Assembly: GCA_943788505.1 (NCBI GenBank)
Contig: CALSQR010000002.1
Location: 943,213-1,007,212, forward strand
Source: an uncultured bacterium
GTDB taxonomy: Bacteria; Bacteroidota; Rhodothermia; Rhodothermales; UBA10348
Direction: 5' to 3'
DNA length: 64,000 nt
Part shown: in pieces, positions 30,668 to 48,344 of the stretch
Layout: every line of letters starts with the position of its first letter
Position numbering within the stretch: the first letter of the stretch is position 1
The notes under the pieces: model-generated
The model's database searches: none
What the model saw: the letters and a program-made list of their open reading frames with translations, nothing else
What the model was told of the DNA's origin: nothing
Program-made: the position numbers and the translations under genes

Positions 30668-31936
30668 TTAATCCATCATTTTGCGCAGAAAAGCGGGTAC
30701 ATCTGTACCACTCTTCTCTGTCGACTCCGTCGTCTGGATGTCTTCCGGTTTAAGCAAACGAACGCGTGTTTCACGCTGCTCAGTGCTAGAAGAACCACCA
30801 TCACCGCTGCGCACCTTGATTTGAGATCCACGGCGTTCATAGGCAGGCGGATCCAAGTCCTTAAGCCCTTCCTCCCCTTTGTAAGAGATAGGAGAAGCCG
30901 AGTAGGTCGGCACATTCAGCTTCACCTGACGCGGCTTGGAGGCTGCAGCCAAACGAGCCTTTTCGAATCCAGTCGCAATGACCGTGATGCGCAGATCTTC
31001 CCCCATGTTTTCATCGATGACGGTACCGAAGATGACTTCCACATCATCTCCCGCTTCATTTTGAATGATCGATGTCGCGGCCGTTGCTTCACGAATACCG
31101 AGAGTTGGACCAGCTGTGATGTTGACCAAAACGTTTCGCGCACCATTGATCGTGAGTCCATCCAGCAACGGGCTAGACAAGGCCTCACGGGCAGCACGCT
31201 CCGCACGATTCTCACCGGCGGCAGTGGCCGCACCCATCAAGGCAGTACCACCATTGCGCATAGTCGTCTTGACGTCGGCAAAGTCCAGGTTGATTAGGCC
31301 ATGAACCGTAATCAAGTCTGAGATTCCGCGCGTCGCATTGTACAGAACGTCATCCGCCTTCCCGAAGGCATCGAGCATTGAGGTGTCTTCACCCGCGATA
31401 TCGAGCAAACGCTCGTTCGGGATGATAATGAGCGTATCCACGTTCTGCTTCAGCAGATCGACGCCTGCTTCGGCCGATTGGGACCGGCGAGGCCCCTCGC
31501 ACGTGAACGGCTTGGTGACAATCGCTACCGAAAGGACACCTAAATCCTTGGCGATGGCGGCCACAATTGGCGCCCCACCCGTTCCGGTGCCTCCGCCCAT
31601 TCCAGCCGTGATGAACACCATGTCGAAGCCCCGTAGCGCCTCTTCAAGTTCATTGCGACTTTCTTCGATGGCTTCGGCACCTACACTGGGACGTGCACCT
31701 GCACCCAAACCCTTTGTAAGACCACGCCCTGCCTGAATTTTATACGGTGCCAGGTTGGCGTCTAAAGCCTGGGAATCGGTATTGATGGCGTAGAAGTCCA
31801 CCCCCGTTATCCCCTTCTTGATCATGTTATTGACGGCGTTTCCGCCTCCGCCACCTACGCCGATGACGCAGATTTTGGCTTCTTCATTCTCTGCGTCATC
31901 AAACGCGAAATGAGTGCTAAACAAGTTGCTATCCAT
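30668..31936 (-). CDS. ftsZ: Cell division protein FtsZ
   Basis: Tubulin-like GTPase that forms the cytokinetic Z ring. 422 residues from the ATG at 31936 (MDSNLFSTH), which has a strong GGAGG (31942-31946) five bases upstream; the longer frame to 32029 overlaps ftsA and is not needed. GTP-binding loops: CVIGVGGGGGNAVNNM at the N-terminus and the tubulin signature GGGTGTGGAP. The T7 loop and NLDFADVKTTM region are intact. A variable linker of about 80 residues leads to the conserved C-terminal peptide TDVPAFLRKMMD, which should bind FtsA and other partners. It is the last gene of the dcw operon. Confidence 0.97.
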   Translation of the reverse strand: MDSNLFSTHFAFDDAENEEAKICVIGVGGGGGNAVNNMIKKGITGVDFYAINTDSQALDANLAPYKIQAGRGLTKGLGAGARPSVGAEAIEESRNELEEALRGFDMVFITAGMGGGTGTGGAPIVAAIAKDLGVLSVAIVTKPFTCEGPRRSQSAEAGVDLLKQNVDTLIIIPNERLLDIAGEDTSMLDAFGKADDVLYNATRGISDLITVHGLINLDFADVKTTMRNGGTALMGAATAAGENRAERAAREALSSPLLDGLTINGARNVLVNITAGPTLGIREATAATSIIQNEAGDDVEVIFGTVIDENMGEDLRITVIATGFEKARLAAASKPRQVKLNVPTYSASPISYKGEEGLKDLDPPAYERRGSQIKVRSGDGGSSSTEQRETRVRLLKPEDIQTTESTEKSGTDVPAFLRKMMD

Positions 31937-32010
31937 TGATTCCTCCGAAAAACGTGTTGGCTGTAAATGGATGGTTGCAGGTGAGCTACCCGTTTCCATC
32001 CGTGCTGGGG

Positions 32011-33273
32011 TTAGAGCTCGTGAAACCACTTCATCATCGAATCCTTAATCTTCCGGACGACATTGTCTCCCCCTCCCGAGGGGTCCGTTGCATCTAGATG
32101 ATTGGTCCGAAATGGAGTATTTCCAATCATTTCCGGTCGGAGCCCGTAGAGCACGAGTCCGACAGCGGTGGCATATTTGGGATCAGACACTTCTTGGACC
32201 AGCCCGGCAGTGAGACCCATGGGTCTCCCGATCCTAGCATCCATTCCCAAAATTTCAGCGGCCAGTTCGGCCGTTCCTTTGACGAGCGAGCCGCCCCCGG
32301 TAAGCACCGCTCCTGCGGAAAGGTGCCGGGAGAACCCGCTTCGTTTGATTTCGATAGCAGCGATCTCGAGAATCTCCTCAAGACGCGGCTGAATGATCTG
32401 GGCGAGAGTACTGCGGCCTACGCGTTTTTCTTTACGTCCGCCGACTCCTGGGATGGCGATTTCTTCTTCAGGAGCCATCTCGACCATGGCAGTGCCAAAC
32501 TCACACTTGAGCGCTTCTGCTTGATCGCGCATGACACCCAGTCCTTTACGGATGTCATCAGTTACTTTGTTGCCCGCAACGGCGACCACGGCCGTATGGC
32601 GAATAGTGTTGTCTTCGAACACCGCAATGTCTGTCGTACCGCCGCCGATGTCGATCAACGCCACACCAACTTCCTTTTCGTCTTTATGCAAGACAGCAAA
32701 GGAGGATCCAAGCGGTTCGAGCACGATGTCCGCGACTTCGTACCCTGATTTCTCGACACACCGGTAGATGTTCTTAGCAGCGGAAACGAGGCCCGTAATG
32801 ATGTGAACGTTGGCCTCAAGCCGAACGCCACTCATACCGATCGGATCGGCAACGCCGTCCTGCCCATCTACGATAAACTCTTGTGGAATGACATGCAGAA
32901 TCTCTCGATCCGCCGGCATGGCCACGTGGGTGGTGTCCTCAAGCAGGCGCTGCACGTCATTTTCGGAAATCTCCCCATCCCGACTAGATATCGTGATGAC
33001 ACCTCGGGATTGAAAGCTTTGTACGTGATCGCCAGCAATGCCCACGATGACGTTGCGAACGGTGACACCTGCCATCCGCTCCGCTTCTTCGATGGCTGCG
33101 CGTACGGCTGCCACCGTCTTGTCGATATTCACGACGACACCCCGGTTCAACCCTTCGGATTCGGCTACGCCGACCCCTAGGATCTGGACTCGGTCCAGTT
33201 CGTCGGATGTAGCGACTACAGCACAAACTTTTGTTGTGCCGATATCCAGTCCTACTACAATCTTGTCACTCAT
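32011..33273 (-). CDS. ftsA: Cell division protein FtsA
   Basis: Actin-family protein of 420 residues that anchors FtsZ to the inner membrane. Phosphate-1 loop VGLDIGTTKVCAVVA, the SHS2/1C region, phosphate-2 IDIGGGTTDIAVF and the adenosine motif LTGGGSLVKG are all visible. The C-terminus VVRKIKDSMMKWFHEL is a short amphipathic helix, the membrane-targeting sequence. It begins 12 bases after the ftsQ stop and ends 74 bases before the ftsZ start. Confidence 0.97.
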   Translation of the reverse strand: MSDKIVVGLDIGTTKVCAVVATSDELDRVQILGVGVAESEGLNRGVVVNIDKTVAAVRAAIEEAERMAGVTVRNVIVGIAGDHVQSFQSRGVITISSRDGEISENDVQRLLEDTTHVAMPADREILHVIPQEFIVDGQDGVADPIGMSGVRLEANVHIITGLVSAAKNIYRCVEKSGYEVADIVLEPLGSSFAVLHKDEKEVGVALIDIGGGTTDIAVFEDNTIRHTAVVAVAGNKVTDDIRKGLGVMRDQAEALKCEFGTAMVEMAPEEEIAIPGVGGRKEKRVGRSTLAQIIQPRLEEILEIAAIEIKRSGFSRHLSAGAVLTGGGSLVKGTAELAAEILGMDARIGRPMGLTAGLVQEVSDPKYATAVGLVLYGLRPEMIGNTPFRTNHLDATDPSGGGDNVVRKIKDSMMKWFHEL

Positions 33274-33285
33274 TGCTGTTGTTGT

Positions 33286-34053
33286 TTAACTCGAGGAAGC
33301 ATTCCGCATGTGTTGCTCCCGAACTACGATCTGGCTGTCAAAACGGAGGTCTATCAAGATGAATTCCTTATTCCTGTGTTGCAGGACCTGCTCGTTCCAA
33401 AAGCCCTGTAACATCTGAAACTTGAGGGCGAAATCAGAGGCGCCCAGCAATACCGGAATGGAATGATGCCCGGCCACGGGGGTCGTGCGCAATTCCCATC
33501 CGGAATCGACTCGGATGAACTCAGAAAAGAGGGCATCCATTTCTTCGGATGTCCCTGCCAACGCACGAAGTAACTCGCGGGTTGAAGGGTCCATAATTGG
33601 TTTCATGGGGTGCCATGGTCCAAGATTCATATCCAGAATCGGCACGTCATAGGCTGCACGATCTGTGATCGGCAATCGCCATCCTGCAGCATCCACCCAG
33701 GTATCGGGCCGGTCATTGCTGCCAAGAAGTACCGCAACTGGTTTTCGTTCGTCGATCCGAATGTCCAAAACCCCAGAAGGGAGACGAGCAACGTCTGCCT
33801 GTCGAATCCAGGGATGACGAATCAGACGATCCTCAAGTACGACAGCACTGATGTCGTAGAGAACCATGCTGGTATCCACCCTGATGATGTCTCGAATGTC
33901 TGACTCAGTAGTGTTCACATTTCCCTGAATTGCCACATCAGAAAGTGTGATCTGCTGAATCCAGGAAAACCCTGTCCATCCGGCAAATACCATCCCCGAC
34001 AGTAAGGCGCCTGTCGCGATCCACATTCCTATCAATCGTAACCTAGCAGCCAT
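33286..34053 (-). CDS. ftsQ: Cell division protein FtsQ/DivIB
   Basis: 255-residue bitopic division protein. One membrane helix (about 8-30, GMWIATGALLSGMVFAGWTGF) is followed by a POTRA domain beginning ITLSDVAIQGNVNTTESDIRDII and ending PWIRQADVARLPSGVLDIRIDERKP. The beta domain then contains WVDAAGWRLPI. FtsQ scaffolds the FtsB/FtsL complex. Its start overlaps the end of murC by 11 bases, so translation is coupled. Sequence conservation is low, as usual for this family, and position in the cluster supports the call. Confidence 0.9.
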   Translation of the reverse strand: MAARLRLIGMWIATGALLSGMVFAGWTGFSWIQQITLSDVAIQGNVNTTESDIRDIIRVDTSMVLYDISAVVLEDRLIRHPWIRQADVARLPSGVLDIRIDERKPVAVLLGSNDRPDTWVDAAGWRLPITDRAAYDVPILDMNLGPWHPMKPIMDPSTRELLRALAGTSEEMDALFSEFIRVDSGWELRTTPVAGHHSIPVLLGASDFALKFQMLQGFWNEQVLQHRNKEFILIDLRFDSQIVVREQHMRNASSS

Positions 34054-35503
34054 GAGAAACCTCCATTCGATTGAGGACGTCGGCCATATCGCGATTTAAT
34101 CGCCAGATATCGCCAGCACCCATCGTGAGGATCACATCGCCAGGCTTACTGAGCGTCATTACCGTATCCACGACATTGCTTCTGTCGGGCTGGTAGTGAA
34201 CAGCGGCATGACCTGTTACTCGAGCAGCCTCAGCTACTATTTCGCCCGTCACACCCGCTTTAGCTTCTTCGCGTGCACCGTAGACATCCAAAACTATCAC
34301 TACATCGGCCAATGCCAGTGCCTGCCCGAATTGCGCTGCGAATTGCTGCGTTCTCGAATACAGATGCGGCTGGAACGTAGCGACGATTCGTCGTTCCGGG
34401 AAAGCACCGCGCGCTGCTTCCAGCGTTGCACGGACTTCAGTTGGATGGTGCGCATAGTCATCGATTAGCAGCCGGGAGGCGGCATTCGCGATCTCGTGCA
34501 TTCTACGATCTACGCCAGCAAAGGCGCCGATCCCTCTAGAGATATCCTCGAATGCCATGTCCAATTCGAGTCCGACGGCGATGGCAGCCAGCGCATTAAG
34601 CACGCTGTGCATTCCCGGCGAATGTAGAGTCACCCGGCCACGTCTCGTCGAGCCTTCGACCACGTCGAAGTGCATTTTAAGTCCTTCCTGTCGGATGTTT
34701 TCCGCTCGAACATCCGATTCTTTCCGCGTTCCGTAGGTCACAACCCTTCGATCAATCTCGGGAAGGATGCCCCGCGCGTGCTCATCATCGATACACACTA
34801 TTGCAACGCCGAAAAAGGGCACACTAGACGCATATTGGATAAATGCCTGTCTAATGTCATCCAAATCGGCATAACAGTCTAGGTGATCCGCTTCGATATT
34901 CGTGATGACCGCAATTACCGGGGTCAATCTCAGGAAGGTGCGATCATACTCGTCTGCTTCAATGAGAATAATATCCCCATCGCCGGAGACAGCATTCGAT
35001 CCAAACGCTGCCACCTTGCCTCCGACGATTACCGTCGGATCAAAGGCACCCTCACCAATAACATGACCAGCCATAGTAGTGGTGGTCGTTTTACCATGCG
35101 TCCCGGCAATCCCAACTCCGAATTTCATGCGCATCAGCTCTGCCAGCATTTCGCTGCGAGCAATGACCGGTATTCCGCTGGCTCGCGCCTGTAGCGTCTC
35201 CGGATTTGTTGCCGGGTCTACGGCCGATGAGTGGACTACAACACACGCTTTATCAATATGAGTAGCTTCGTGCCCTTTGTGAATCGTGGCTCCTAAGCTC
35301 TGTAGATGCCGCGTCACCTGGCTTTCAGCCAAATCAGACCCACTGACTCGATAGCCGCGTCGTAGCAACACTTCGGCAATCGAACTCATTCCGATACCGC
35401 CAATTCCCACGAGATGAACGTGGCGAATCCGACCGAATACAGGTTGGCGACGAGTCCGAGGACGCGATGACAATGCAGGACGAGAGTGAATGATCGAATC
35501 CAT
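34043..35503 (-). CDS. murC: UDP-N-acetylmuramate--L-alanine ligase
   Basis: 486-residue cytoplasmic Mur ligase that adds L-Ala to UDP-MurNAc. Rossmann motif HLVGIGGIGMSSIAEVLL near residue 29, ATP loop GIAGTHGKTTTTTM, the central IEADEYDRTFL, and DDYAHHPTEV before the C-terminal domain. An arginine-rich N-terminal extension of about 25 residues precedes the fold. The ATG shares one base with the murG stop (TGATG). Confidence 0.96.
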   Translation of the reverse strand: MDSIIHSRPALSSRPRTRRQPVFGRIRHVHLVGIGGIGMSSIAEVLLRRGYRVSGSDLAESQVTRHLQSLGATIHKGHEATHIDKACVVVHSSAVDPATNPETLQARASGIPVIARSEMLAELMRMKFGVGIAGTHGKTTTTTMAGHVIGEGAFDPTVIVGGKVAAFGSNAVSGDGDIILIEADEYDRTFLRLTPVIAVITNIEADHLDCYADLDDIRQAFIQYASSVPFFGVAIVCIDDEHARGILPEIDRRVVTYGTRKESDVRAENIRQEGLKMHFDVVEGSTRRGRVTLHSPGMHSVLNALAAIAVGLELDMAFEDISRGIGAFAGVDRRMHEIANAASRLLIDDYAHHPTEVRATLEAARGAFPERRIVATFQPHLYSRTQQFAAQFGQALALADVVIVLDVYGAREEAKAGVTGEIVAEAARVTGHAAVHYQPDRSNVVDTVMTLSKPGDVILTMGAGDIWRLNRDMADVLNRMEVSHGC

Positions 35504-36702
35504 CAGTTCAGCCCCTCCATAGCCAAATTCAATACGTCTCGAGCAATGTCGGCCGCTGCATCTGGGCGAGCGAGTCGCTTGGCTTGCGTGCGCATCTCTG
35601 CTAACCGATCGGGTTGATCCAGCAAGCGGCGTACTGTAGAGCGGAAATCGGCACGCATCCTCGATTCTGGCAATATCTCCGCTGCACCGGCCTTTTCCAG
35701 GCTTCGTGCATTCTGCGTCTGGTGGTCTTCAGCTACATTCGGAGATGGAATGAGCAAGGGAGCTGATCCGGTTAGCATCAGTTCCGAGCACGTCGAAGCA
35801 CCTGCCCGACAAACAACCAGATCCGCTGCATTGTAGGCCATGTCCATGCGACTCACATATCGAAGTAAGTGCAGATTTGGATGCTCAGGAATACTTTCTT
35901 TGTAGCGATCGAAGTATCGGTCGCCGGTTTGCCAGATGACCGCTGTGTCGCCGCGAGAAAGGAAGGAGCGCACACTTTCAGCCATCACTTCATTCATCAC
36001 TTGGCTTCCAAGCGATCCTCCTGTCATGAAGATGACTTGTCTGATTCCACTCATGTTGAAGTGGGCATGGGCCTCTTCTCTGGTAGGCCGGGTCAAGGAC
36101 GTCCGGACAGGATTCCCTGTCAAGCGACACCGGTCGCTATCACTATTCGGAATGGCTTCTGGAAAGGCAACGTGTAAGCGGGTAGCAAAGCGCATGCCTA
36201 CCCGATTAGTTAGGCCCATAAAGGCATTCTGCTCCTGAAGTACAATCGGTCGCCTCAACACGCGCGCTGCTAGAATCACCGGCATGGCTACGTAGCCACC
36301 CGTACCCACGATGATATCTGCATCGAAATGCCGAATCAGTGCATGGGCCTCAACCAGCCCACGGGAAACGACAAACGGCATCGCCAAATTGGCCAACGTA
36401 AGCTTTCGCTGAAGCCCGCGCACCGAAACATGATGAATGGCATAGCCCGCTTCAGGGACAATGCGCCATTCGATATTTGTACGTGAACCGGCAAATTCAA
36501 CAACAGCACGAGGGTTTTGAGCTCGGATGGCATCTGCGATGGCGATAGCCGGATAGGCATGACCTCCCGTTCCCCCTCCTACCATGAGAATACGGGGAGC
36601 ACCCTGGCGCGACACCACAGCACTGGAGCGCGTCGTGGACTCAACCACGGGCGCAGATGCCTTGGTTGTCCTCATTTCCGCTATGTCCGTATTCAGGGTC
36701 AT
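35503..36702 (-). CDS. murG: UDP-GlcNAc:lipid I N-acetylglucosaminyltransferase
   Basis: 399-residue peripheral membrane GT28 enzyme that converts lipid I to lipid II. The glycine-rich loop MVGGGTGGHAYPA lies at about 41-53, GTGGYVAMPVILAA and EQNAFMGLTNR are standard, and VVCRAGASTCSELMLTG with PSPNVAEDHQTQNARSLEKAGAA is the UDP-GlcNAc site. It has about 35 extra N-terminal residues rich in Ser/Thr. The start overlaps the ftsW stop by four bases (ATGA). Confidence 0.96.
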   Translation of the reverse strand: MTLNTDIAEMRTTKASAPVVESTTRSSAVVSRQGAPRILMVGGGTGGHAYPAIAIADAIRAQNPRAVVEFAGSRTNIEWRIVPEAGYAIHHVSVRGLQRKLTLANLAMPFVVSRGLVEAHALIRHFDADIIVGTGGYVAMPVILAARVLRRPIVLQEQNAFMGLTNRVGMRFATRLHVAFPEAIPNSDSDRCRLTGNPVRTSLTRPTREEAHAHFNMSGIRQVIFMTGGSLGSQVMNEVMAESVRSFLSRGDTAVIWQTGDRYFDRYKESIPEHPNLHLLRYVSRMDMAYNAADLVVCRAGASTCSELMLTGSAPLLIPSPNVAEDHQTQNARSLEKAGAAEILPESRMRADFRSTVRRLLDQPDRLAEMRTQAKRLARPDAAADIARDVLNLAMEGLN

Positions 36703-37844
36703 GCTGCGATATCCACCTGTCGCGAAATATTGAGCAAAATTCCAGCCATGATGCCGTTCGCTAACAACGACGTTCCTCCGTATGAAACAAAGGGTAAGGG
36801 CAGACCGGTAACGGGCAGAAGATTCGAAGAGACGCCCGCATGAACGAACCCGTACATAGTTAGCATCACTACGATACCTACCGCTAGGAACAGACCTAGT
36901 GGATCAGGCGCCTTTCGCGCAACGCGCAAGAGTCCCCTGAACAAAATCACAAGGAAGAGAGAGAGCAAAAAGAGGGCCCCCACTATTCCATATTCCTCGG
37001 CTATGATCGCGTAAATAAAATCGTTGTAAGGAGCGGGGAGAAAGTCACGTTGCACGCTTTTCCCAGGTCCAACACCCAGTAGTCCGCCTTGCGCAATCGC
37101 CATCTTGGCCTGTTCCGATTGATACAACTCGGCCCGGTTCGAGTAGTCGATGTCATCCGTATTTAGAAACATCTTAACCCCCACGAAGGCCTCAAGCCGA
37201 GCCGCTCTTTGTGGCGAGGTTGACAGCATTCCGTAGGCCAATGTCAGACCCAGCAATCCAACCATCAGAATGTGACCTACGCTTACCCGGGCGATAAAAC
37301 ACATAATCATGACGGCGGTAAGGACCACCGCTGCCGTTGAGAGATCCGAGATCCCGATAGCGCCAATGGTTGCCATAATCCAGATGAAGATCGGAGCGAA
37401 CGCACGGGAGAAGGACTTAACGTAGAGTTGCTTCTGAGCCAGCAAAGAGGCAACAAAAAGCAACAAGGAGACCTTTGCCAGATCCGAAGGCTGAAAAATG
37501 AACCCCATCACATTCAGCCACCTGGCGGCACCGCCAGAAACAACCCCAAGCACCTGCACAGCCAGCAACAAAAGAATGGAGCCGATAAGGAGGAATCGAC
37601 TCACCGCCGCGAGGGCGCGATAGTTGATGACAGAAAAAACACCCATCGCTACTAGTGCCAGACCTACGCGGAACAAGTGTTTAAACAGCAGCGCCTCCGT
37701 ATCTCCGCCACCCTTGGTGGCCGCAAGGAATCCGATCGCGCTGTACACCGCGAAAACTCCTATTGCGCTCAGTGCCAGGATGGACAGAAGGACATACTTG
37801 TCCACTGGTCCGACCTGGTCACTACGTAGCGTGAGGTACTGCAT
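36699..37844 (-). CDS. ftsW: SEDS peptidoglycan glycosyltransferase FtsW
   Basis: 381-residue polytopic SEDS protein that polymerises glycan chains at the septum together with FtsI. Ten hydrophobic segments are visible. Family motifs: GGAARWLNVMGFIFQPSDLAK, SERAELYQSEQA-like loop, GVGPGKSVQRDFLPAPYNDFI (the part containing the catalytic loop) and PVTGLPLPFVSYGGTS. Its placement beside murG and ahead of ftsQAZ marks it as FtsW rather than RodA. It starts 20 bases after the murD stop. Confidence 0.95.
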   Translation of the reverse strand: MQYLTLRSDQVGPVDKYVLLSILALSAIGVFAVYSAIGFLAATKGGGDTEALLFKHLFRVGLALVAMGVFSVINYRALAAVSRFLLIGSILLLLAVQVLGVVSGGAARWLNVMGFIFQPSDLAKVSLLLFVASLLAQKQLYVKSFSRAFAPIFIWIMATIGAIGISDLSTAAVVLTAVMIMCFIARVSVGHILMVGLLGLTLAYGMLSTSPQRAARLEAFVGVKMFLNTDDIDYSNRAELYQSEQAKMAIAQGGLLGVGPGKSVQRDFLPAPYNDFIYAIIAEEYGIVGALFLLSLFLVILFRGLLRVARKAPDPLGLFLAVGIVVMLTMYGFVHAGVSSNLLPVTGLPLPFVSYGGTSLLANGIMAGILLNISRQVDIAA

Positions 37845-37864
37845 GATTGTGAGGTGATCTCTTA

Positions 37865-39289
37865 TCAGAGATTGGAAACAAGTTGGCGGAATTGATCACC
37901 TCGATCCTCGAAAGAATCGAACATGTCAAAGGATGAGCACGCTGGGCTCAGCAATACCACATCTCCTGTTCTAGCCAAGAGCTGTGAGAGTTGGACCGCA
38001 TCGGCCAGCGTGTCTGCGATGACGGCGTCCTGCACATGCTGTCCCAGTTCGTGGTGAATCCGAGGTGCTGCCTCGCCAATAGCGATAACAGCGCGTACTC
38101 GTTGTTGAATGAGTGGAACGAGAGAGGAATAGTCGTTGCCCTTGTCCCGTCCACCAACAATGAGTACCACTGGCTCGCGAAAGCTCTCCAGCGCGTACCA
38201 AACAGCGTTCACGTTGGTGGCTTTCGAGTCATTCACATAGCGGACACCGTCCACATCGCGAACAGATTCAAGCCGGTGCGGAACGCCTTCGAATGATCTA
38301 AGACTTTCGCGAACTACGTCGCTCCTGACCTCCACCACACGTGCGGCCACTGCTGCTGCCAGCGAGTTGTACACGTTGTGACGGCCTTTCAAGGCCAGTT
38401 CGTTTGAATGCATCAATAGGTCCTCCTTGTTGTCGATGCACAGCATCAGATTCCCATTTCGAAGGAATCCGGCTGCTGTCTGATGTCTATTCTCGTCAAT
38501 GTCTGTGGTCAGAGAGTCGGACAAAGTGATCCCCAAGGCTCGTGGCCCGGGAAGTCCCGTCTGCTCCCGCTCCCGGACGGATCGAACAAGTCGTTCATCG
38601 TCCATGGAATAAATGAAATGGTCGGCCTGCGTCTGCTGCTCACTAATGCGAAATTTGCTGGCCGCATAGCGATCGATATCGTTAGCATATCGGTCGAGGT
38701 GATCCGGCGTGATGTTTAGTAGCACCGCTACTTCCGGCCGGAAGGTGTCCACATGGTCAAGCTGGAAGCTGGATACTTCGAGTACAACCATTGCTGTGTC
38801 GGATGCCGTATCAGCACACGTCGAAAAGGGTAGTCCCACGTTTCCGCAGACATACACTTCGTGGCCTGCTTGCCGAAGTATGTGACCCAGCAGATGAGCG
38901 GTCGTGGTCTTGCCATTGGAACCGGTGATAGCAAGCGTTTTTGCCCGACAGAACCAACTCGCTAGTTCGATTTCTGAAATCACTGGCACGCCAGCCTGTT
39001 GCGCCTCACGAATAGGGAGACTCGTATCAGGGACACCAGGACTCGTTACCACTAGATCGGCCTCCCAACTGCGGGGCGAATGGTTGCCCGACTCGAAATC
39101 AATTCCCTCGCCTTGGAAGGATTTTTTTGCCTCTTCAGAAATGGAACCACCATCCGAAACAAACACCTCTGCGCCGTTGCGACGTAGTAACGCTGCAGCA
39201 GCCTGCCCACTCCGGGCAGCACCCAGAACGGCAACACGTTGCCCCGCAACGGTTTTAGGGTCGATATGTGGCATAGCTGCCGTCATCAT
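37865..39289 (-). CDS. murD: UDP-N-acetylmuramoylalanine--D-glutamate ligase
   Basis: Cytoplasmic Mur ligase that adds D-Glu. 474 residues from the ATG at 39289, which overlaps the mraY stop as ATGA; the frame runs back to 39373 inside mraY, but that part is unlike MurD. N-terminal VAVLGAARSGQAAAALL, SPGVP, ATP loop AITGSNGKTTTAHLLG, LNITPDHLDRY and the NDSKATN motif before the C-terminal domain are typical. A second ATG directly after the first and another at 39274 are alternatives. Confidence 0.95.
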   Translation of the reverse strand: MMTAAMPHIDPKTVAGQRVAVLGAARSGQAAAALLRRNGAEVFVSDGGSISEEAKKSFQGEGIDFESGNHSPRSWEADLVVTSPGVPDTSLPIREAQQAGVPVISEIELASWFCRAKTLAITGSNGKTTTAHLLGHILRQAGHEVYVCGNVGLPFSTCADTASDTAMVVLEVSSFQLDHVDTFRPEVAVLLNITPDHLDRYANDIDRYAASKFRISEQQTQADHFIYSMDDERLVRSVREREQTGLPGPRALGITLSDSLTTDIDENRHQTAAGFLRNGNLMLCIDNKEDLLMHSNELALKGRHNVYNSLAAAVAARVVEVRSDVVRESLRSFEGVPHRLESVRDVDGVRYVNDSKATNVNAVWYALESFREPVVLIVGGRDKGNDYSSLVPLIQQRVRAVIAIGEAAPRIHHELGQHVQDAVIADTLADAVQLSQLLARTGDVVLLSPACSSFDMFDSFEDRGDQFRQLVSNL

Positions 39290-40443
39290 CGTATTCGAAG
39301 TACTAGTAAGGTGGCGATCACCGTGATGGCTGTAATGAGCCAGAATCGCAGCACGATTTTGGCTTCGTGCCAACCCTTCGCCTCATAGTGATGATGGATC
39401 GGCGCCATTTTGAATAGTCGTTTCCCGACACCGGTCCGCTTGCGCGTGTATTTGAACCAAGACGTCTGGAGGATGACAGAAAGCGTCTCCCAGAAGAACA
39501 CAGCGCACAGAAGCGGCAGCAGCAGCTCCTTGTGGATCATCAATGTCAATGTTCCGACGGCTGCGCCCAATGAAAGAGCGCCAGTATCACCCATGAATAC
39601 CGTGGCGGGATACCCGTTGTACCAAAGGAAACCAAAACAGGAAGCGGCCAGCGCCGCGGCAAAGACGGTCAGTTCACCAGCACCGGGAAGCAACATCTCG
39701 TTCAAGAAGTCGGAGAAAATCGCGTTACCAGCGATATAGGCTAGCGCGGTCAATCCCACCGCTACGATACCCGTCACACCCGCGGCCAAACCGTCTAACC
39801 CGTCCGTTAGGTTTACTGCATTTGAAAGCGCCGTCAGGATGAAAATGACCACAGGGATATAGATGACCCAGCCCAAATCAACACCATCCACAAAATGCCG
39901 CAGAACATCGTAATTGAGCGTTTCGTCTGCCACGAAAGGCAAATAGGTCAATGTTCTGATATCACTAAACTGCGGATGGAAATACAGGACTGACCCTACC
40001 AGCAGACCAAGCGAAATCTGACCAATTAGTTTGATGCGAGCTGGCAAGCCTGATTTATCTCGCTTAACCACTTTGATGTAGTCATCGGCGAATCCAAACG
40101 CTCCCATCCACGCTGTAGCGAGCATGATCAGCCAAACATAGACTTCTGCCACGGCTCCCCAGAGCAAGGTCGCGCCAAGCACCGAGATCAGAATGATAAG
40201 CCCACCCATGCTAGGCGTACCCTGCTTGTGGGTATGATCCACAACGCCGGCATGAATTCCTTCCCGTACCTGCTCTCCGAGCTGCTTATGGCCCAGCCAG
40301 CGGATAATCGAGCGGCCGGCAAACAGGGCGATCAATAGCGCCGTGATAGCAGCAAGCGCTGCACGCACGGTGATGTAATCGATCACCTGAAATCCGGGCG
40401 GTTCGAAGACCGACTCGAGATATTGTATGAGGTAGTAAAGCAT
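39286..40443 (-). CDS. mraY: Phospho-N-acetylmuramoyl-pentapeptide-transferase
   Basis: 385-residue integral membrane enzyme that links MurNAc-pentapeptide to undecaprenyl phosphate, giving lipid I. About ten helices. Catalytic landmarks are HKQGTPSMGGLII, the aspartates in FGFADDYIKV, NAVNLTDGLDGLAAG and the C-terminal APIHHHYEAKGWHE motif with its His cluster. It is about 25 residues longer than the E. coli enzyme, as usual in this phylum. It starts six bases after the murE stop: murF, which sits between them in proteobacteria, is absent. Confidence 0.96.
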   Translation of the reverse strand: MLYYLIQYLESVFEPPGFQVIDYITVRAALAAITALLIALFAGRSIIRWLGHKQLGEQVREGIHAGVVDHTHKQGTPSMGGLIILISVLGATLLWGAVAEVYVWLIMLATAWMGAFGFADDYIKVVKRDKSGLPARIKLIGQISLGLLVGSVLYFHPQFSDIRTLTYLPFVADETLNYDVLRHFVDGVDLGWVIYIPVVIFILTALSNAVNLTDGLDGLAAGVTGIVAVGLTALAYIAGNAIFSDFLNEMLLPGAGELTVFAAALAASCFGFLWYNGYPATVFMGDTGALSLGAAVGTLTLMIHKELLLPLLCAVFFWETLSVILQTSWFKYTRKRTGVGKRLFKMAPIHHHYEAKGWHEAKIVLRFWLITAITVIATLLVLRIR

Positions 40444-40448
40444 GAGTG

Positions 40449-41975
40449 TCAGTGCACTGCGCCGTGGGTGGCGGAACGGTCTTGAGAGAGCGATGAAGAA
40501 GCTGCTTCTGGCCCGAAAGCGCTACGAGCTTCCTCCCGATCATCGAAATGGAGAACCTCTTCCCCAATAACTTGCGTGGTTTCGTGTCCTTTGCCGGCTA
40601 GAACCAGAACGTCATTTCGACGCATAAGTCGAGCCGCATAGCGAATAGCTTCTCGTCGATCTGTAATTCCGATTGCCCGCCCCGGCTGCCTGAAGCCTGA
40701 TCGGACATCGTCCATAATTGCATCGGGATCTTCTGAGCGTGGATTGTCGCTGGTGATGATGACTCGATCAGCACGCCGCTCAGCCACAGCTCCCATTAAT
40801 GGTCTCTTTCCAGTGTCTCGATCCCCGCCGCAACCAAAAATGCACCACAGCCAGGATCCTTCTTTTTGCGCTTCCCTCGATGCAAGCAACACGTTTTCGA
40901 GCGCATCCGGTGTGTGGGCATAATCCACTATCACAGTCCGTCCATTCTGAAACGTGAGGCGTTCAAACCGACCTGGGACTGGTGGGTGTGCAGCTAGCGT
41001 TTCGAGCAGGAATGCCCGCTCAAGTCCAAGCGCGCGTCCCGCTGCAAATGATGCCGCAAGATTCGAAGCGTTGTAGGTTCCGGCGAGCAGATAGCGACGG
41101 GTGTCGCCGTCGAGAGTCAAGTGCAAACCAGACTCATCATTAGCCTCTATCGTGACGTGCACATCGGGTTGCCCAATTGCACCAAACGTTGTGACCTCTG
41201 CTGCGGTGTCGGCAATCATGGTAAATGCTTTTGCATCATCCGTATTCACGACTGCGTGAGCCGTCGTGGATAGTGCGTCGAAGAGACCTTTCTTGGCTTG
41301 CAAATACGCCTCTTCTGTACCATGATAGTCCAGATGATCGCGCGTGAGATTCGTAAAGACAGCGACATCTATGTCCGATAGACGAAAGCGGTGTTGGTCG
41401 ATGGCATGCGATGATGCCTCCATCACGCAGTGCGTACACCCATTTTCCACCATAGCGGAGAGGACGGCATGCAATACCAGCGGGTCGGGCGTGGTGTGTG
41501 TCGCGGGAAGAGTTTGGACTCCGTCATGGATTCCTGTCGTCCCAATGAAGCCGCATCGTAGGCCTGCGCTTTCCAAAACATCTCTAAGAACCGAGGCGAT
41601 GGTCGTCTTACCATTCGTCCCTGTAATCGCTATAAGTGTGAGCTTCTTGCCTGGATCCTCGTGTGCGAGCGAAGCGAGCTGAGCGAGGGCACGCCGTGAA
41701 TCCTTCACGCGTGCCCAGGCGGGGCCGTCTGCCATTTCTTGAATGCCAGATTCTGGCCCCGCCTCGCACACGATCGAAGTAGCTCCGTTTAAAACAGCCT
41801 TGTCAATGAACAGGTGGCCATCCACACTTCTGCCGCGAAGGGCGACGAAGCATTCCGATGACCCGACCGTCCGACTATCACTAGTCAGACGGTCGATATT
41901 AACCGAATGTGGGGCATGGGCCTCGAGCAGCAAGCCGCTGCTCTCGAGCCGTTCTATGCACGATTTGAATGTCAT
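40449..41975 (-). CDS. murE: UDP-MurNAc-L-Ala-D-Glu--2,6-diaminopimelate ligase
   Basis: 508-residue cytoplasmic Mur ligase. ATP loop AITGTNGKTTIASVL, TTPDPLVLH, MEASSHAIDQHR and VDYAHTPDALENVL are present. The specificity loop is TSDNPRSEDP, the DNPR form that selects meso-diaminopimelate rather than lysine, so the cell wall should be mDAP type. The C-terminus carries AGKGHETTQV. It begins about 38 bases after the ftsI stop. Confidence 0.95.
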   Translation of the reverse strand: MTFKSCIERLESSGLLLEAHAPHSVNIDRLTSDSRTVGSSECFVALRGRSVDGHLFIDKAVLNGATSIVCEAGPESGIQEMADGPAWARVKDSRRALAQLASLAHEDPGKKLTLIAITGTNGKTTIASVLRDVLESAGLRCGFIGTTGIHDGVQTLPATHTTPDPLVLHAVLSAMVENGCTHCVMEASSHAIDQHRFRLSDIDVAVFTNLTRDHLDYHGTEEAYLQAKKGLFDALSTTAHAVVNTDDAKAFTMIADTAAEVTTFGAIGQPDVHVTIEANDESGLHLTLDGDTRRYLLAGTYNASNLAASFAAGRALGLERAFLLETLAAHPPVPGRFERLTFQNGRTVIVDYAHTPDALENVLLASREAQKEGSWLWCIFGCGGDRDTGKRPLMGAVAERRADRVIITSDNPRSEDPDAIMDDVRSGFRQPGRAIGITDRREAIRYAARLMRRNDVLVLAGKGHETTQVIGEEVLHFDDREEARSAFGPEAASSSLSQDRSATHGAVH

Positions 41976-42013
41976 CGTGGGGATGCTCTATGCTCCCGGG
42001 TTTCATGAGGTTG

Positions 42014-44095
42014 TCAATTCAGTGTCAGTCTCGCCGAGTTACCCAAAGCCGCTCCCGGCTCAGGCGACTGTCGCACTACGGTTCCATGGCCACTCATGAC
42101 CACGTCAACATGTAGTGCCTTCAACCAAGCCATAGCCTCCCGGGCAGAAAGTCCTTCGAGGTCAGGCATCGTCTGCACGGTATCTGGTTCAGCCGTCAAT
42201 CGGACCGGCACGCTAAGCAGCGTTTCCGTTCCGGCTGACAGATCCTGTACCAAGACTGCCGTGTGAAAATCATCTTTTGCATTCGTCATTTTGAGGCCAG
42301 AGGCAAGCATGCGTCTGCGTGCAATTGGCACTGGCTGACCAGCCGCATCTGGAACCAGCACCGGTTCATTTACTTCGTCCGGCTCTCCATCCATTTGAAC
42401 GTATTCCGCCAGCTGAGGCATTCGTGCCATCCATCGCTCGGTCACACGCTGGAAGACGGGAGCCGCCACAATGCCGCCATACATGCTTTTTCCTGGTTCG
42501 TCCATCACGATGGCCAGAACGACTTGAGGATTCTCCACAGGCCAAAACCCAACAAACGTGGCGCGGTATTTTCCTGGTAGATATCCTTTTGGTCCCGCCT
42601 TGCGAGCCGTTCCTGTCTTGCCGGCAATCCGCAAACCCTCCACGTGAGCAAGGGGCGCTGTTCCATCTTCAGAGACGACAGATTCAAAGGCAGGCATCAG
42701 TGTCGCAGCGGTTTCGCGCGAGAATACCCTACGCACGGAATCTGGCTGCGCGCGCCACGTTACAAACCCCTCGGCATTTCGTCGCTCACGGACGATATAG
42801 GGTTTCATCAGCAACCCTCCGTTTGCGAGGGCGCCGTAGGCCAGGGCTACTTGCAGGGGAGATGCTTCAATTGCATAGCCACGGCTCATGGCCGATTTCG
42901 TCGTTGCATCCCACATCTTCGTTTGCTTCAGTCGGGTATCGACCTCGCCAGGTAATTCGATTCCGGTCTTCTGGTTAAACCCAAATTGACGAGCATACTG
43001 ATACATCATCGCTTCTGACATGTCTTCCGCTACTATGGCTGTCCCTACGTTGCTGGACAGCATGATGACTTCAGAAAACGATATCGTTCCGTTAGGATGC
43101 ATGTCTCGGATCGTAAATCGTCCCTGCTGCAGCGTTCCGTCTCCTGTATCAATGGAGTCCGACATAGCAATGGCGCCTGACTCAACAGCTGCCACAGCTG
43201 GCACGACTTTAATGACAGAACCGGGCTCAATTTTGTCTTCGACGACATGGTTGCGCCGGGCCGCCATGGGATACGAACCCACGCGGTTGGGGTCGTAGGT
43301 TGGCCAGTTCGCCATGGCGATGATTTCACCCGTATTGGGGTCCAGCGCGACAGCTGCAGCCCAGGAGGCTTTCCCTTCAATCGCTCCACGCTCAAGTTCT
43401 TCTTCTAAAATGGACTGCCGAACCAAATCGATCGTCAGATATAGAGACTCTCCATGAACAGGGGGACGCTCTCCGCTACCAGGAATGAGTTTGAGACGAT
43501 TTTGGCGATCTTTGCGCATGACCCGCTGCCCATCTGTGCCGCGAAGAACCTCGTTGAATTCAAACTCGAGGCCTGATTGGCCTGCATCGATCCCGGCAAC
43601 TCCGAGTACGTGCGCAGCTGCACTACCATGGTTGTAGCGCCTTGTCGTAGATCCTTCGGGAAGAACGCCTGGAACCGAAGAAAACCAACGAAGGTCTTCG
43701 CTCGTCATGGTGACATCACGTGCTAACATGATGTATTGCTTGCTAGCTCGGTTACGGACCCGCGAGCGCAATGTCGATACTGGCGTACCTGATTTTTTTG
43801 ACAATCGCTGGTAAAATTCAGTTTCTCGGTCAGAGAAGCCTTTTTCCATCGGATCAAGGGCGATGTCTACCCGCTCTATGTTGACGACTAGAGGGCGTTC
43901 TGTTGCATCGAAAATCTCGCCACGCAGCGCCGGAATAGTTCTCAACTCAGTTGACTGCACTTGAACGATTTCTCGCAGATCATCGCCGTCAATCGCGGAC
44001 ACGCGCAGCAATTGCAGCCCGACAAGAACGGGCAGCAGTGAGATCAAGGTGATCACTACGTACATGCGTGCCAGTATCTGGTCTTTTAGCTCCAT
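42014..44095 (-). CDS. ftsI: Division transpeptidase FtsI/PBP3 (class B PBP) with PASTA domain
   Basis: 693-residue class B penicillin-binding protein that cross-links septal peptidoglycan with FtsW. One N-terminal membrane helix (about 12-30), the pedestal domain beginning RGEIFDATERPLVV, and the transpeptidase with nucleophile Ser293 in EPGSVIK (SxxK), SSN at 347-349 and KTG at 493-495. The last 60 residues (TMPDLEGLSAREAMAWLKAL to the end) form one PASTA domain, a feature of SpoVD/PBP2x-like FtsI seen in Bacteroidota and Gram-positives. Located between ftsL and murE as expected. Confidence 0.95.
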   Translation of the reverse strand: MELKDQILARMYVVITLISLLPVLVGLQLLRVSAIDGDDLREIVQVQSTELRTIPALRGEIFDATERPLVVNIERVDIALDPMEKGFSDRETEFYQRLSKKSGTPVSTLRSRVRNRASKQYIMLARDVTMTSEDLRWFSSVPGVLPEGSTTRRYNHGSAAAHVLGVAGIDAGQSGLEFEFNEVLRGTDGQRVMRKDRQNRLKLIPGSGERPPVHGESLYLTIDLVRQSILEEELERGAIEGKASWAAAVALDPNTGEIIAMANWPTYDPNRVGSYPMAARRNHVVEDKIEPGSVIKVVPAVAAVESGAIAMSDSIDTGDGTLQQGRFTIRDMHPNGTISFSEVIMLSSNVGTAIVAEDMSEAMMYQYARQFGFNQKTGIELPGEVDTRLKQTKMWDATTKSAMSRGYAIEASPLQVALAYGALANGGLLMKPYIVRERRNAEGFVTWRAQPDSVRRVFSRETAATLMPAFESVVSEDGTAPLAHVEGLRIAGKTGTARKAGPKGYLPGKYRATFVGFWPVENPQVVLAIVMDEPGKSMYGGIVAAPVFQRVTERWMARMPQLAEYVQMDGEPDEVNEPVLVPDAAGQPVPIARRRMLASGLKMTNAKDDFHTAVLVQDLSAGTETLLSVPVRLTAEPDTVQTMPDLEGLSAREAMAWLKALHVDVVMSGHGTVVRQSPEPGAALGNSARLTLN

Positions 44096-44161
44096 GCGGT
44101 GATTTCGCGGCTCAGGTTTTGTTCAGGTGAAAAGTGGATTTCGTTTCTCTTTTGGGATGGA

Positions 44162-44770
44162 TTAAGGCATTAGCACCGGGTCACCCTGGTGAAGTCTGTC
44201 TTTGAGTCCTAGCTCGGAAGCGGCCGAAAAAATCTTTTCGGGTCCCGTCGCATGATGAAATTCGCCTTCTAGCTTGTCATAGGTCATTTGGAGAGCCAAC
44301 CTGTCGTTTCTGAGGCCCTGCACATCCGCCAGTAGGTCCTGTGTAGCGAACACGTGCCCCACGTACAGCGTGAAGAGAGTGGCTACTGCCAAAATGATGA
44401 CCACAAATCGTGCTGTTGAAATGGCACCCAGCCATGTGTCCGCGTCCGGCCGCGATGAAGATTGGGTCGCGTTCGATGTCGAGAGATCCCTCCAAGAAGG
44501 CGAGCCCATCACCTCTAGGTCCCTGTTCTTCGAGGCAATCGAAGTTCGTGCTGGAGCTTTGGCCTTTGTGGTGCGGCTACGCTTATCTGCCGTCCGATTC
44601 GTTGCCTTTTTTGCCTTGGTACCCGCTGTCTTCGTAGTGCGGGTCCTAGTCACTGTCGACGATGTTTTTTTACGTGACTCGTCAGAGGTGCTTTTCATTA
44701 CGAAGCGCACGGCTTTCTTCGACCGGGATCCGGACGGAGACGTTGATTTCCTATTGTTAGAAAGTGCCAT
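44162..44770 (-). CDS. ftsL: FtsL-like division protein with long cationic N-terminus
   Basis: 202 residues from the ATG at 44770 (MALSNNRKS), overlapping the rsmH end by 14 bases. One membrane helix (about 122-141, FVVIILAVATLFTLYVGHVF) is followed by a short coiled coil (DLLADVQGLRNDRLALQMTYDKLEGEF) and a tail. This TM-plus-leucine-zipper layout and the position between rsmH and ftsI identify FtsL. The cytoplasmic N-terminus is unusual: some 110 residues almost entirely Lys, Arg, Ser, Thr and Ala, against about 20-35 in E. coli FtsL. A shorter start at 44698 (MKSTSDESRK) would still leave a long basic tail. It resembles histone-H1-like tails in composition. Confidence 0.75.
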   Translation of the reverse strand: MALSNNRKSTSPSGSRSKKAVRFVMKSTSDESRKKTSSTVTRTRTTKTAGTKAKKATNRTADKRSRTTKAKAPARTSIASKNRDLEVMGSPSWRDLSTSNATQSSSRPDADTWLGAISTARFVVIILAVATLFTLYVGHVFATQDLLADVQGLRNDRLALQMTYDKLEGEFHHATGPEKIFSAASELGLKDRLHQGDPVLMP

Positions 44771-45758
44771 AATCTGGATGAGCATTAGGCGATGGGTCAC
44801 TGTCTTTCAGGCGCTCGGCAACTCGTAGTCGCGCACTACGACTACGGGGATTGGTCTCGATTTCTTGTTCGTCGGCGAGAATGGGTTTGCGGGTAGTTTC
44901 CTTCCACGGGGACAACTTGTTACCGTAGAAATCTTTCTGGATTTCATCGCGAAGATTGCCGCTTCGCATAAAGTGCTTCACACGACGATCCTCCAGTGAG
45001 TGATAGCTGATGACAGCCAACCGGCCGCCTTCCGCTATCAAGTCGGTCGACGCTTCAAGAATGCGGTCGAGCGCATCCAATTCTTCGTTAACCGCGATAC
45101 GGAGTCCCTGAAATACACGCGACAAGGTTTTCGACTCCTGCCCCCATTTTGCAACGGAGCGTACGATGTCGGCCACCTGCGCAGTGGTATGTAGTGGACG
45201 CGCCGCAACCAAAGCACGGGCCACACGCCCAGCTTTAGGCTCCTCCCCATAGCGACCCAACACACGAGCCAGTTCATTCGGCTCTAGGCGATTGATAAGA
45301 TCCGAGGCGTCTTCTCCACCGCTTTGGTCCATACGCATGTCAAGGGGGCCTTCAAAGCGATGACTAAATCCGCGGTCTCCTTCGTCCAATTGATGGGATG
45401 AAACACCGAGATCAAGCAATAATCCACTGACCTTACCCAAACCAAGTCCAGCGAGCAGATCCGGCGCATCACAGAAGTTGCCCTTGACGATTTGCAGACG
45501 CCCATCCCCAATGGCTACGCCCAACCGAACAGTCGCTTCCTCCAGCGCATCATCATCCCGATCAATGGCTACAACGCGGCCAGCCGGACTGAGTGCATCA
45601 AGTAGTGCTGCGCTGTGTCCACCACCGCCCAGAGTACCATCCACATAGAGGCCATCGCGATCTGTCACGAGTTCCTGAATAACAGCATGCCAAAGAACAG
45701 GCGCGTGATAGCCCGAAGCGTATTTCAGAACCTGCCTCGAATCGTCACGCGCATTCAC
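44757..45758 (-). CDS. rsmH: 16S rRNA (cytosine(1402)-N(4))-methyltransferase RsmH (MraW)
   Basis: 333-residue SAM-dependent methyltransferase acting on C1402 of 16S rRNA. N-terminal HAPVLWHAVIQELV, SAM loop YVDGTLGGGGHSAALL, AIDRDDDAL, LLLDLGVSSHQLDEGDRGFS and ISYHSLEDRRVKHFM near the end are the family motifs. The start is a GTG at 45758 with AAGGA at a good spacing upstream; a nearby ATG is out of frame. Second gene of the dcw operon, 59 bases after mraZ. Confidence 0.95.
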   Translation of the reverse strand: MNARDDSRQVLKYASGYHAPVLWHAVIQELVTDRDGLYVDGTLGGGGHSAALLDALSPAGRVVAIDRDDDALEEATVRLGVAIGDGRLQIVKGNFCDAPDLLAGLGLGKVSGLLLDLGVSSHQLDEGDRGFSHRFEGPLDMRMDQSGGEDASDLINRLEPNELARVLGRYGEEPKAGRVARALVAARPLHTTAQVADIVRSVAKWGQESKTLSRVFQGLRIAVNEELDALDRILEASTDLIAEGGRLAVISYHSLEDRRVKHFMRSGNLRDEIQKDFYGNKLSPWKETTRKPILADEQEIETNPRSRSARLRVAERLKDSDPSPNAHPDYGTF

Positions 45759-45817: not shown

Positions 45818-46261
45818 TCAGGAGCCCATGACCTGTTCTGCCAAGGATTCCTGATCGATCGTCTGTTCGTTCAAATAGTCTTCAAACGCCGCCTGGTCCC
45901 ATATCTCTATGCGATCCATGGCGCCAATGATGAGTGCTTTTTCGCCGATACCCGCATAGTCGGAAAGCGACTTTGGTAGAGATATTCTGCCCTGACCGTC
46001 GAGCGAGACTTCCTCGGCCCACATGAGAATCATGCGGACGAGGTGGCGCGCATTTCGGTTGTTCAGATTCAGCGATGAGAACTCATCTTCTTTAATCTTC
46101 CACTGGTCCTGGGGATAAGCATAAATGCACTTTTCAAACCCTTTCGTCAGCGTAAACGTCCCCTGGGCATCCGGATTCAATGCTGATCGCATCTTAGCCG
46201 GAATGGCGACCCGTCCTTTCGCATCGACGGAGTATTCTGCCTGTCCCTTGAAACGTGCCAT
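45818..46261 (-). CDS. mraZ: Transcriptional regulator MraZ
   Basis: 147-residue DNA-binding protein with two AbrB-like SpoVT repeats: FKGQAEYSVDAKGRVAIPAKMR at the N-terminus and EVSLDGQGRISLPKSLSDYAGI in the middle. The ATG at 46261 (MARFKGQ) is chosen; the frame extends to 46309 without homology. MraZ represses the dcw promoter by binding TGGGN repeats, and such repeats lie 130 bases upstream at 46388-46402, so autoregulation is expected. Confidence 0.95.
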   Translation of the reverse strand: MARFKGQAEYSVDAKGRVAIPAKMRSALNPDAQGTFTLTKGFEKCIYAYPQDQWKIKEDEFSSLNLNNRNARHLVRMILMWAEEVSLDGQGRISLPKSLSDYAGIGEKALIIGAMDRIEIWDQAAFEDYLNEQTIDQESLAEQVMGS

Positions 46262-46377
46262 GAATGGGTGGTGAGCCGTACAATCGGTCTTGCTATACCG
46301 TATTCTCAATCAACTTCTGGGTGCGCTAGATGCGAACCTGGTAGCTGATCTGCCAGGATTGGCTGGAAATGGAGATA

Positions 46378-46440
46378 TGGGAATTCTCCCCACTTTTCCC
46401 CACATAACCGGTAATGTACGTTTTTCAGACCGAAAGTCAA
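46378..46440 (-). promoter_or_regulatory. dcw operon promoter with MraZ box
   Basis: Read on the minus strand: a -35 like TTGACT at 46440-46435, a 16-base spacer, a -10 like TACATT at 46418-46413, then TGGGG at 46402-46398 and TGGGG at 46392-46388, exactly ten bases apart with five-base gaps. A third copy, TGGGA, lies in inverted orientation at 46378-46382 in the same register. Direct TGGGN repeats with 10-bp period just after the -10 element are the known MraZ operator arrangement. The promoter is inferred by eye; the box is a clear sequence feature. Confidence 0.75.
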
Positions 46441-46552
46441 GCAAAAACGCTCATTCAAACTGCCCTACAATCTTCGATTAAAGCCACTGAGGGCGTTTTT
46501 GGGGCTAAGAGGGGGAAAGGTGGCAGGAGGTGGGGAGGTTTTGGGGAGCAAA

Positions 46553-46603
46553 TGTGGATCAAAGACAGGGTTATCCACACATATCCACACTATTGGTGGA
46601 TAT
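46553..46603. promoter_or_regulatory. Cluster of DnaA-box-like 9-mers
   Basis: A perfect consensus DnaA box TTATCCACA at 46571-46579 on the plus strand is followed one base later by ATATCCACA (46581-46589, one mismatch). Facing copies on the minus strand are TGATCCACA (46561-46553, one mismatch) and ATATCCACC (46603-46595, two mismatches). The eight bases ATATCCAC and GTGGATAT form a perfect inverted repeat with a seven-base loop. Confidence 0.7.
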
Positions 46604-46640
46604 CAATACCAATTGACAAGAGAGAACCTCCAGCCCCGTC

Positions 46641-48344
46641 CTACTTCAACACCTTGGCTGAGGCCAAGTGTATTTTTTTCTCACGCCGGGGTGGCTTGGG
46701 CTGCGTGATATTGTCCATTTCCTTGGCGTATTCGACCGACGCCCTGACGAAGGAATTAAAGAGAGGATGCGGTTTTCCGACCGTCGAACGATATTCGGGG
46801 TGGAATTGCACGCCAATGAACCAGCGCTTATCGGGCAGCTCAACAATCTCGACCAGGTCCCTTTTGGGGTTTACGCCCGTAAAGTGCATGCCGCTCTCTG
46901 CTAGCTTGTAGCGTAGGACATTATTGAGCTCGTAGCGGTGGCGATGACGCTCCTTGACCTTGGCTCGACCATAGATGGCTGCCGCTTTAGAGTCTTCGGT
47001 CAGCTGGCACGTATAGGCGCCCAGACGCATCGTGCCACCTTTCTCAGAGATTTTCTTCTGCTCTTCCATCAGATCAATGACCGGATGCCTCGTATCCGGG
47101 TCGAACTCGGTGGAATTAGCTGTTTCCCATCCACATACGTTTCGGGCAAACTCGATTACCGAGCATTGCATGCCCAAGCAGATTCCGAAAAACGGAATAT
47201 CATTTTCTCGGGCATATTTGACGGCTTGAATTTTTCCCTCAATGCCGCGATCACCGAATCCAGGCGCCACGAGCACGCCATTCGCATCAGCCAGTTTTTC
47301 TTCGACATTCTCAGCCGTAAGGTCATCCGAGAGGATCTCTGCTAGTTCAACCTGAACGCCGTTCGCAGCGCCTGCCAGAATGAAACTCTCACTGATCGAT
47401 TTATAGGCGTCTTGGTGCTCGACGTATTTACCAACTAACGCAATCCGCACCTTGCCCTGTGGCTCCTTGAGCTGGCGTAGAAATCGTACCCACCCGTCCA
47501 TGTCAGGAGCGTCCAACACTCTACCCTCGAAATCTTCCATCATGTGGAGTCTTTCGACTGCGATTTCGTCCAGCCCTTGCTCCTTCATGAGAAGGGGCAC
47601 TTCATAGATGGATTCTGCATCCTGGGACGCGATAACTGCTCTTTGCTCCACGTTGCAGAAAAGCGCGAGCTTACGTTTGACATCTTCTGTCATGGGCCGG
47701 TCTGTGCGGCAGACCAAGACATCAGGCTGCAGACCGAAAGAAAGCAACGTCTTGACCGAGTGCTGGCTTGGCTTTGACTTAACCTCACCCGCCGCTTCGA
47801 GGTACGGAAGGAGAGTAAGGTGGATGTTCAGCGTATTGCGACTACCAAGCTCATAGCGCAATTGTCGGATGGCTTCGAGATATGGCTGCCCTTCGATATC
47901 CCCTACTGTACCCCCGATCTCAGTAATAACAACGTCATAGTCACCCGTTTCTCCGAGCTGCAGCATCCAGTGCTTGATCTCGTCGATGATATGAGGAACC
48001 ACCTGAACTGTCTTACCGAGGTAGGCGCCCGTGCGCTCCTTCTTGATCACTTCCAGATACACACGACCCGTGGTAACGTTGTTAGCCTGACTAGTGGCTA
48101 CGCCAAGAAAGCGTTCATAGTGGCCAAGATCGAGGTCTGTTTCAGCACCATCGTCTGTGACATAGACTTCCCCGTGCTCGTACGGGTTCATCGTTCCAGG
48201 ATCAACGTTGATGTAGGGGTCGAATTTCTGAATCGTGACGCGAAGTCCACGATTTTCCAAAAGACGGCCTAAGGAGGCACAAATAATGCCTTTTCCGAGT
48301 GACGATGTGACGCCACCGGTCACAAATACGTACTTCGTTTGCAC
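46641..48344 (-). CDS. pyrG: CTP synthase
   Basis: 567-residue cytoplasmic enzyme that makes CTP from UTP, ATP and glutamine. The synthase domain begins [17 protein letters not shown] and includes [21 protein letters not shown] and [20 protein letters not shown]. The class I glutaminase domain has the nucleophile Cys in [15 protein letters not shown], and the His/Glu of the triad in [10 protein letters not shown]. Full length for the family. The start is GTG at 48344. It lies upstream of the dcw promoter, separated by a 379-base gap, so it is likely a separate unit. Confidence 0.97.

Follow-up and report, generated by a model that had tools for sequence, protein, structure and literature searches.

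What is the role of a compact cluster of DnaA boxes that lies between pyrG and the promoter of the dcw genes: replication origin, regulatory element, or neither? The cluster was found in an uncultured member of the Rhodothermales, with a genome of two contigs, 2.75 Mb in size. The window is a stretch of 64,000 nucleotides (C2:943213-1007212), and coordinates without contig or locus name refer to it. The boxes sit in a gap of 331 bp, from the stop of pyrG (46641) to the mraZ ORF (46309). The upstream neighbour pyrG (CTP synthase; 46641-48344, - strand) is co-directional with mraZ.

The anchor of the array is one perfect DnaA box, TTATCCACA (46571-46579, + strand), kept in relatives. A tandem copy with one mismatch, ATATCCACA (46581-46589, + strand), follows after a gap of one base, at a step of 10 bp; the same tandem arrangement is present in genome G002 (L014). 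Facing these two is TGATCCACA (46553-46561, - strand), with one mismatch, also present in G002. On the - strand, a fourth copy with two mismatches lies at about 46597-46605. The perfect copy, the copy one base later and the facing copies were thus found where the initial annotation had placed them. Absent from that annotation were two degenerate half-sites CTCCCCA (46542-46548 and 46531-46537, - strand), which extend the array towards mraZ at steps of 11 bp from the box at 46553; their + strand, TGGGGAG, resembles MraZ half-sites. A C-rich element, CCACCTTTCCCCC (46511-46523, - strand), of the CCCCACCTTTCCCCC type, lies just after pyrG. Genus g6 also has such an element, near -200 in its upstream regions, and a similar one occurs in L035 (g10), from a genome without DnaA box.

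Single boxes are at chance level. Genome-wide, TTATCCACA has 14 copies vs 12 for the reversed control, and TTWTNCACA shows no excess (97 vs 122 for the control). The window shows no enrichment of boxes with one mismatch: 28 were counted against 35 expected. Nowhere else in the 324 kb scanned do three near-consensus boxes fall within 300 bp; their span here is 37 bp. The box cluster is real, and the deciding evidence is conservation.

The mraZ loci were gathered from relatives; named records are Rhodothermales, largely metagenome-assembled. In a tree of MraZ and RsmH, which includes one very long row (L028) of unsure placement, genera g1, g6 and g3 (17 species) form one clade with support 99/95. 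Either TTATCCACA or TTATGCACA is present upstream of mraZ or of the MraZ operator in 16/17 of these species: g1 7/7, g6 6/6, g3 3/4, the fourth g3 species having degenerate copies. Absence of the boxes from close relatives had been named in advance, together with absence of DnaA binding, as what would count against the initial interpretation; in this clade the boxes are present. De novo ranking of 9-mers upstream of mraZ gave TGTGGATAA in 15/17 clade species and in 0/8 genomes of other genera of the family. TTATNCACA is present in 16/17 clade species, at a shuffle rate of 0.5% per sequence. Apart from the box, the surrounding intergenic sequence has diverged strongly among the genomes compared. 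The box stays with mraZ although the upstream neighbour varies: g1 and g6 have pyrG there, and g3 has a gene for a LexA-like protein, with scores under the NCBIfam equivalog cut-off.

This exchange of neighbours bears on a possible role of the inverted repeats in RNA, as terminator of pyrG or as an RNA element. The segments ATATCCAC...GTGGATAT and TGTGGAT...ATCCACA can indeed pair in the pyrG direction. However, folding is ordinary (z -1.4), no terminator was detected on the strand of the pyrG direction, the inverted arrangement is missing from most relatives, and the box also occurs beside the divergent LexA-like gene. Such a role is very unlikely.

In 40 further genomes of the order, TTATCCACA lies at most 250 bp upstream of the operator in 8, against an expectation of 0.29. 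The 8 comprise every sampled member of families f4, f9 and f12, with the box at -61 to -72. Two more loci carry it, L034 at -117 and L160 at -91. In a ranking of 1,680 permutations of the 9-mer, TTATCCACA came first in the clade (15/17, mean 0.05) and first again in the other genomes (10/58, mean 0.11), the two sets being without overlap; the counts overstate the number of separate events, since the genomes are related by descent and not independent. Boxes are absent from other genera of the family and from most other sampled families (f2, f3, f8, f13, f14, f15). The position ranges from -61 to -176, and the orientation is inverted in the genome studied here and in G002. A chance cluster without function would agree with the chance frequency of single boxes genome-wide; it is contradicted by the conservation and by the permutation controls, and is highly improbable. 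Palindromes of the type GGTGAAA-N-TTTCACC were seen upstream of the mraZ promoter in L228, L230, L234, L240, L246 and L160; where checked, that of L160 adjoins a divergent LexA-like gene. They are possibly LexA operators, in which case SOS control would stand beside the dcw promoter.

The mraZ (dcw) promoter, TTGACT, 16 nt, TACATT (46412-46440, - strand), is conserved in relatives. Its -35 hexamer starts at 46440, which puts the nearest box some 113 bp further upstream, in agreement with the distance of about 110 bases given initially. Behind the promoter is a putative MraZ operator (46378-46403, - strand), composed of GTGGGGAAAAGTGGGGA (46387-46403) and an inverted TTCCCA (46378-46383); this pattern has its sole exact match in the whole genome here. 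In most relatives seen, the two direct GTGGGG repeats of the mraZ operator likewise have an inverted TTCCCA-like element behind them. The mraZ ORF (45818-46309, - strand; PF02381) begins at TTG, with a likely start at an ATG near 46261. The rest of the dcw cluster (30668-45758, - strand), assigned from the ORF list and family matches, contains rsmH, a small ORF in the ftsL position, ftsI, murE, mraY, murD, an ftsW-like gene, murG, murC, an ORF in the ftsQ position, ftsA and ftsZ. Two ORFs of the cluster gave no family match. A plasmid search for similar DNA gave no match.

In g1 and g6, CC(A/C)CA half-sites spaced 9–12 bp apart form an array with the box at its head. There are 38 gaps of 9–12 bp between half-sites, vs a mean of 0.45 and a maximum of 5 in 1,000 shuffles. 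The register, approximately -142, -132, -121, -111 and -100 from the operator, is common to g1 and g6; the g3 box is about half a turn off. In the genome studied here three array sites have a spacing of 11 bp. Spacing of 9–12 bp suits spreading of DnaA on weak sites beside a strong one, as at oriC. Both the consensus box and the phased weaker half-sites are conserved in sequence, and their position relative to the promoter is nearly constant.

On the opposite strand several half-sites read GTGGGG, like MraZ half-sites. These reversed sites stand at steps of 9–12 bp in g1 and g6 and do not occur at the array position in g3, f9 and f4. Since some half-sites equal reversed MraZ half-sites in sequence, a composite of DnaA and MraZ sites is possible, and the weaker sites may serve DnaA, MraZ or both. 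The whole array could also be an auxiliary MraZ operator, in which a ring-shaped MraZ oligomer would bind opposite-strand GTGG(G/A) repeats spaced by about 10 bp; the DnaA consensus would then be a by-product of the similarity of GTGGGGA and TGTGGATAA. It would account for CTCCCCAC (GTGGGGAG reversed) in 11/17 clade upstream regions and for an array spacing near the 10-bp step of the promoter operator; in E. coli, an MraZ site overlaps the DnaA box of the mioC promoter (PMC4446571, citing Eraso 2014). It would not account for the invariance of full TTATCCACA, bases beyond the GTGG core included, for the boxes of g3, f9 and f4 without GTGGGG neighbours at the array position, or for a spacing of 9–12 rather than strictly 10 bp, and is on the whole unlikely. 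A G-quadruplex, as reported at the mraZ promoter of S. aureus (PMC11796246), was considered and set aside: C-rich stretches of g1 and g6 reach up to about 2 absolute by the G4Hunter formula, but the g3 species that keep the consensus box score low.

The cluster had also been proposed as a possible replication origin. DnaA boxes are present and gyrB is 5 kb away. However, neither a DnaA-trio nor an AT-rich unwinding stretch is found at the array, and the GC skew points elsewhere. Skew was calculated genome-wide from sampled stretches, and from contiguous sequence for the minimum. The sampled skew crosses from negative to positive values on C2 and back to negative ones near C1:330 kb; the two chromosome arms would be about equal if C1 is placed reversed after C2. 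The cumulative minimum is at C2:1067-1071 kb, at least 77 kb from the array. A 1.2-kb gap between long ORFs at the minimum (C2:1067.0-1068.3 kb) was rejected as oriC, having no DnaA box; a site adjoining dnaA was also rejected, as no box cluster was found there.

A candidate oriC was found at C2:1078.2-1078.7 kb (L107:11164-11660). It contains TTATCCACA, further DnaA boxes, CACATATCCACACCCCCTACTACTATCTACTATTATT (boxes, then a DnaA-trio; compare PMC6669920) and an AT-rich segment, and is flanked by a phosphoglucose-isomerase-like gene and a Usp gene. The same layout precedes the Usp gene in 7/8 relatives in which the Usp gene was found; in the eighth, L205, the locus is truncated, with stops inside the match, and the layout is not in the stretch inspected. 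The conserved oriC is probably at C2:1078.3-1078.6 kb, 88.5 kb to the right of the array and about 59 kb from dnaA. It uses the same box type as the mraZ array, and ACACATATCCACAC is present at both. The array as origin, with the skew minimum and a conserved trio-bearing oriC lying 77–88 kb away, in this genome and in relatives, has a practically negligible likelihood. The gene-direction argument raised against it at the outset was correct, and the dcw genes run leftward, with the fork. A further perfect TTATCCACA was seen at C2:1087391-1087399 (L108:391), 9 kb from oriC, at an ORF matching ribosomal protein L28, near a promoter-like stretch.

The distance to oriC bears on a further explanation, that the array is a DnaA reservoir near the origin, titrating DnaA or modulating its nucleotide state as datA does, its closeness to the dcw genes being incidental. 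In its favour, the array lies 88.5 kb from oriC, and G005 has the same order of mraZ, oriC and dnaA, with 108 kb from mraZ to oriC; E. coli boxes accumulate near oriC (PMC12371093). However, only a single strong box is present, there is neither a genome-wide box excess nor visible crowding near oriC, and a reservoir would not be expected to stand in near-fixed register to the mraZ promoter, as the array does in g1 and g6. A reservoir therefore appears improbable.

The array is probably an element to which DnaA binds to regulate the dcw operon (mraZ to ftsZ) from a position upstream of its promoter. A consensus box near the promoter, conservation beyond chance and a retained box-recognition domain were found, as looked for in DnaA-regulated promoters. 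The GRDHSTVIHA motif of the DNA-binding domain is kept in both DnaA paralogues. Two full-length dnaA paralogues are present in the genome (G000), at C2:1137030-1137515 (L009) and C1:1146415-1146900 (L010); sampled f1 members and G036 also have two, and several other genomes of the order have one. Against a DnaA element count the better fit of the CTCCCCA half-sites to MraZ than to DnaA, the variable position and orientation of the box and the absence of boxes from many families. The initial suggestion that DnaA is coupled here to cell-wall and division genes gains from the finding that many species, with differing upstream neighbours, keep the boxes at the mraZ promoter; the coupling itself is putative. 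Binding, regulation and its sign are inferred from sequence.

In the proposed mechanism DnaA would bind the strong box first and then, probably as DnaA-ATP, spread along the weaker sites about one helical turn apart. This spreading would raise or lower transcription from the mraZ promoter. MraZ, bound to its operator immediately 3' of the -10 and possibly also to the GTGGGG-like half-sites of the array, would assist or oppose DnaA. Since the locus is replicated early after initiation and DnaA-ATP varies through the cycle, division and cell-wall enzymes would be supplied in step with replication. A wider reading, possible but on balance doubtful, is that the whole dcw operon of the Rhodothermales is under standing control by DnaA, and that DnaA and MraZ compete for or share one helically phased array, wiring replication initiation to division-gene supply. 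How bacteria couple replication and division is an open question. With a DnaA box conserved at the start of the dcw cluster in several families, such a link could be tested directly at a single site, one at which DnaA and MraZ sites may overlap.

The site may be a further case of known DnaA binding at division genes, as at Caulobacter ftsZ and B. subtilis ftsL. In a literature search for a DnaA box together with mraZ, no report of such an arrangement was found among the papers searched. In the mioC promoter of E. coli, where the MraZ-binding site overlaps a DnaA box (PMC4446571), the sites adjoin oriC, outside the dcw operon, whereas those of the Rhodothermales are upstream of mraZ itself. Clusters such as datA also consist of DnaA boxes away from oriC, but act on DnaA supply or nucleotide state; the array described here has one strong box and a promoter register. 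Three DnaA boxes upstream of E. coli ftsZ, within ftsQA, are irrelevant to ftsZ transcription (PMC8203912). They are also in the dcw cluster, but intragenic, whereas the Rhodothermales boxes are intergenic and conserved. That case warns against inferring function from boxes alone; intergenic position together with conservation argue for function more strongly than mere box presence. In B. subtilis, ChIP detects DnaA in vivo on the promoter region of the ftsL operon, which ftsL shares with rsmH and pbpB (PMC8203912, PMC11019786). DnaA binding is measured there, whereas the Rhodothermales site is known from sequence and conservation alone; a phased half-site array with MraZ-like sites is present in the Rhodothermales, and none is described for B. 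subtilis ftsL (PMC8203912, PMC11019786). In Caulobacter crescentus, DnaA boxes are likewise located upstream of a division gene, ftsZ; DnaA binds them in vitro, and expression depends on the DnaA nucleotide state (PMC8203912). That case concerns a single division gene in another phylum, whereas in the Rhodothermales the boxes stand at the head of the whole dcw cluster.
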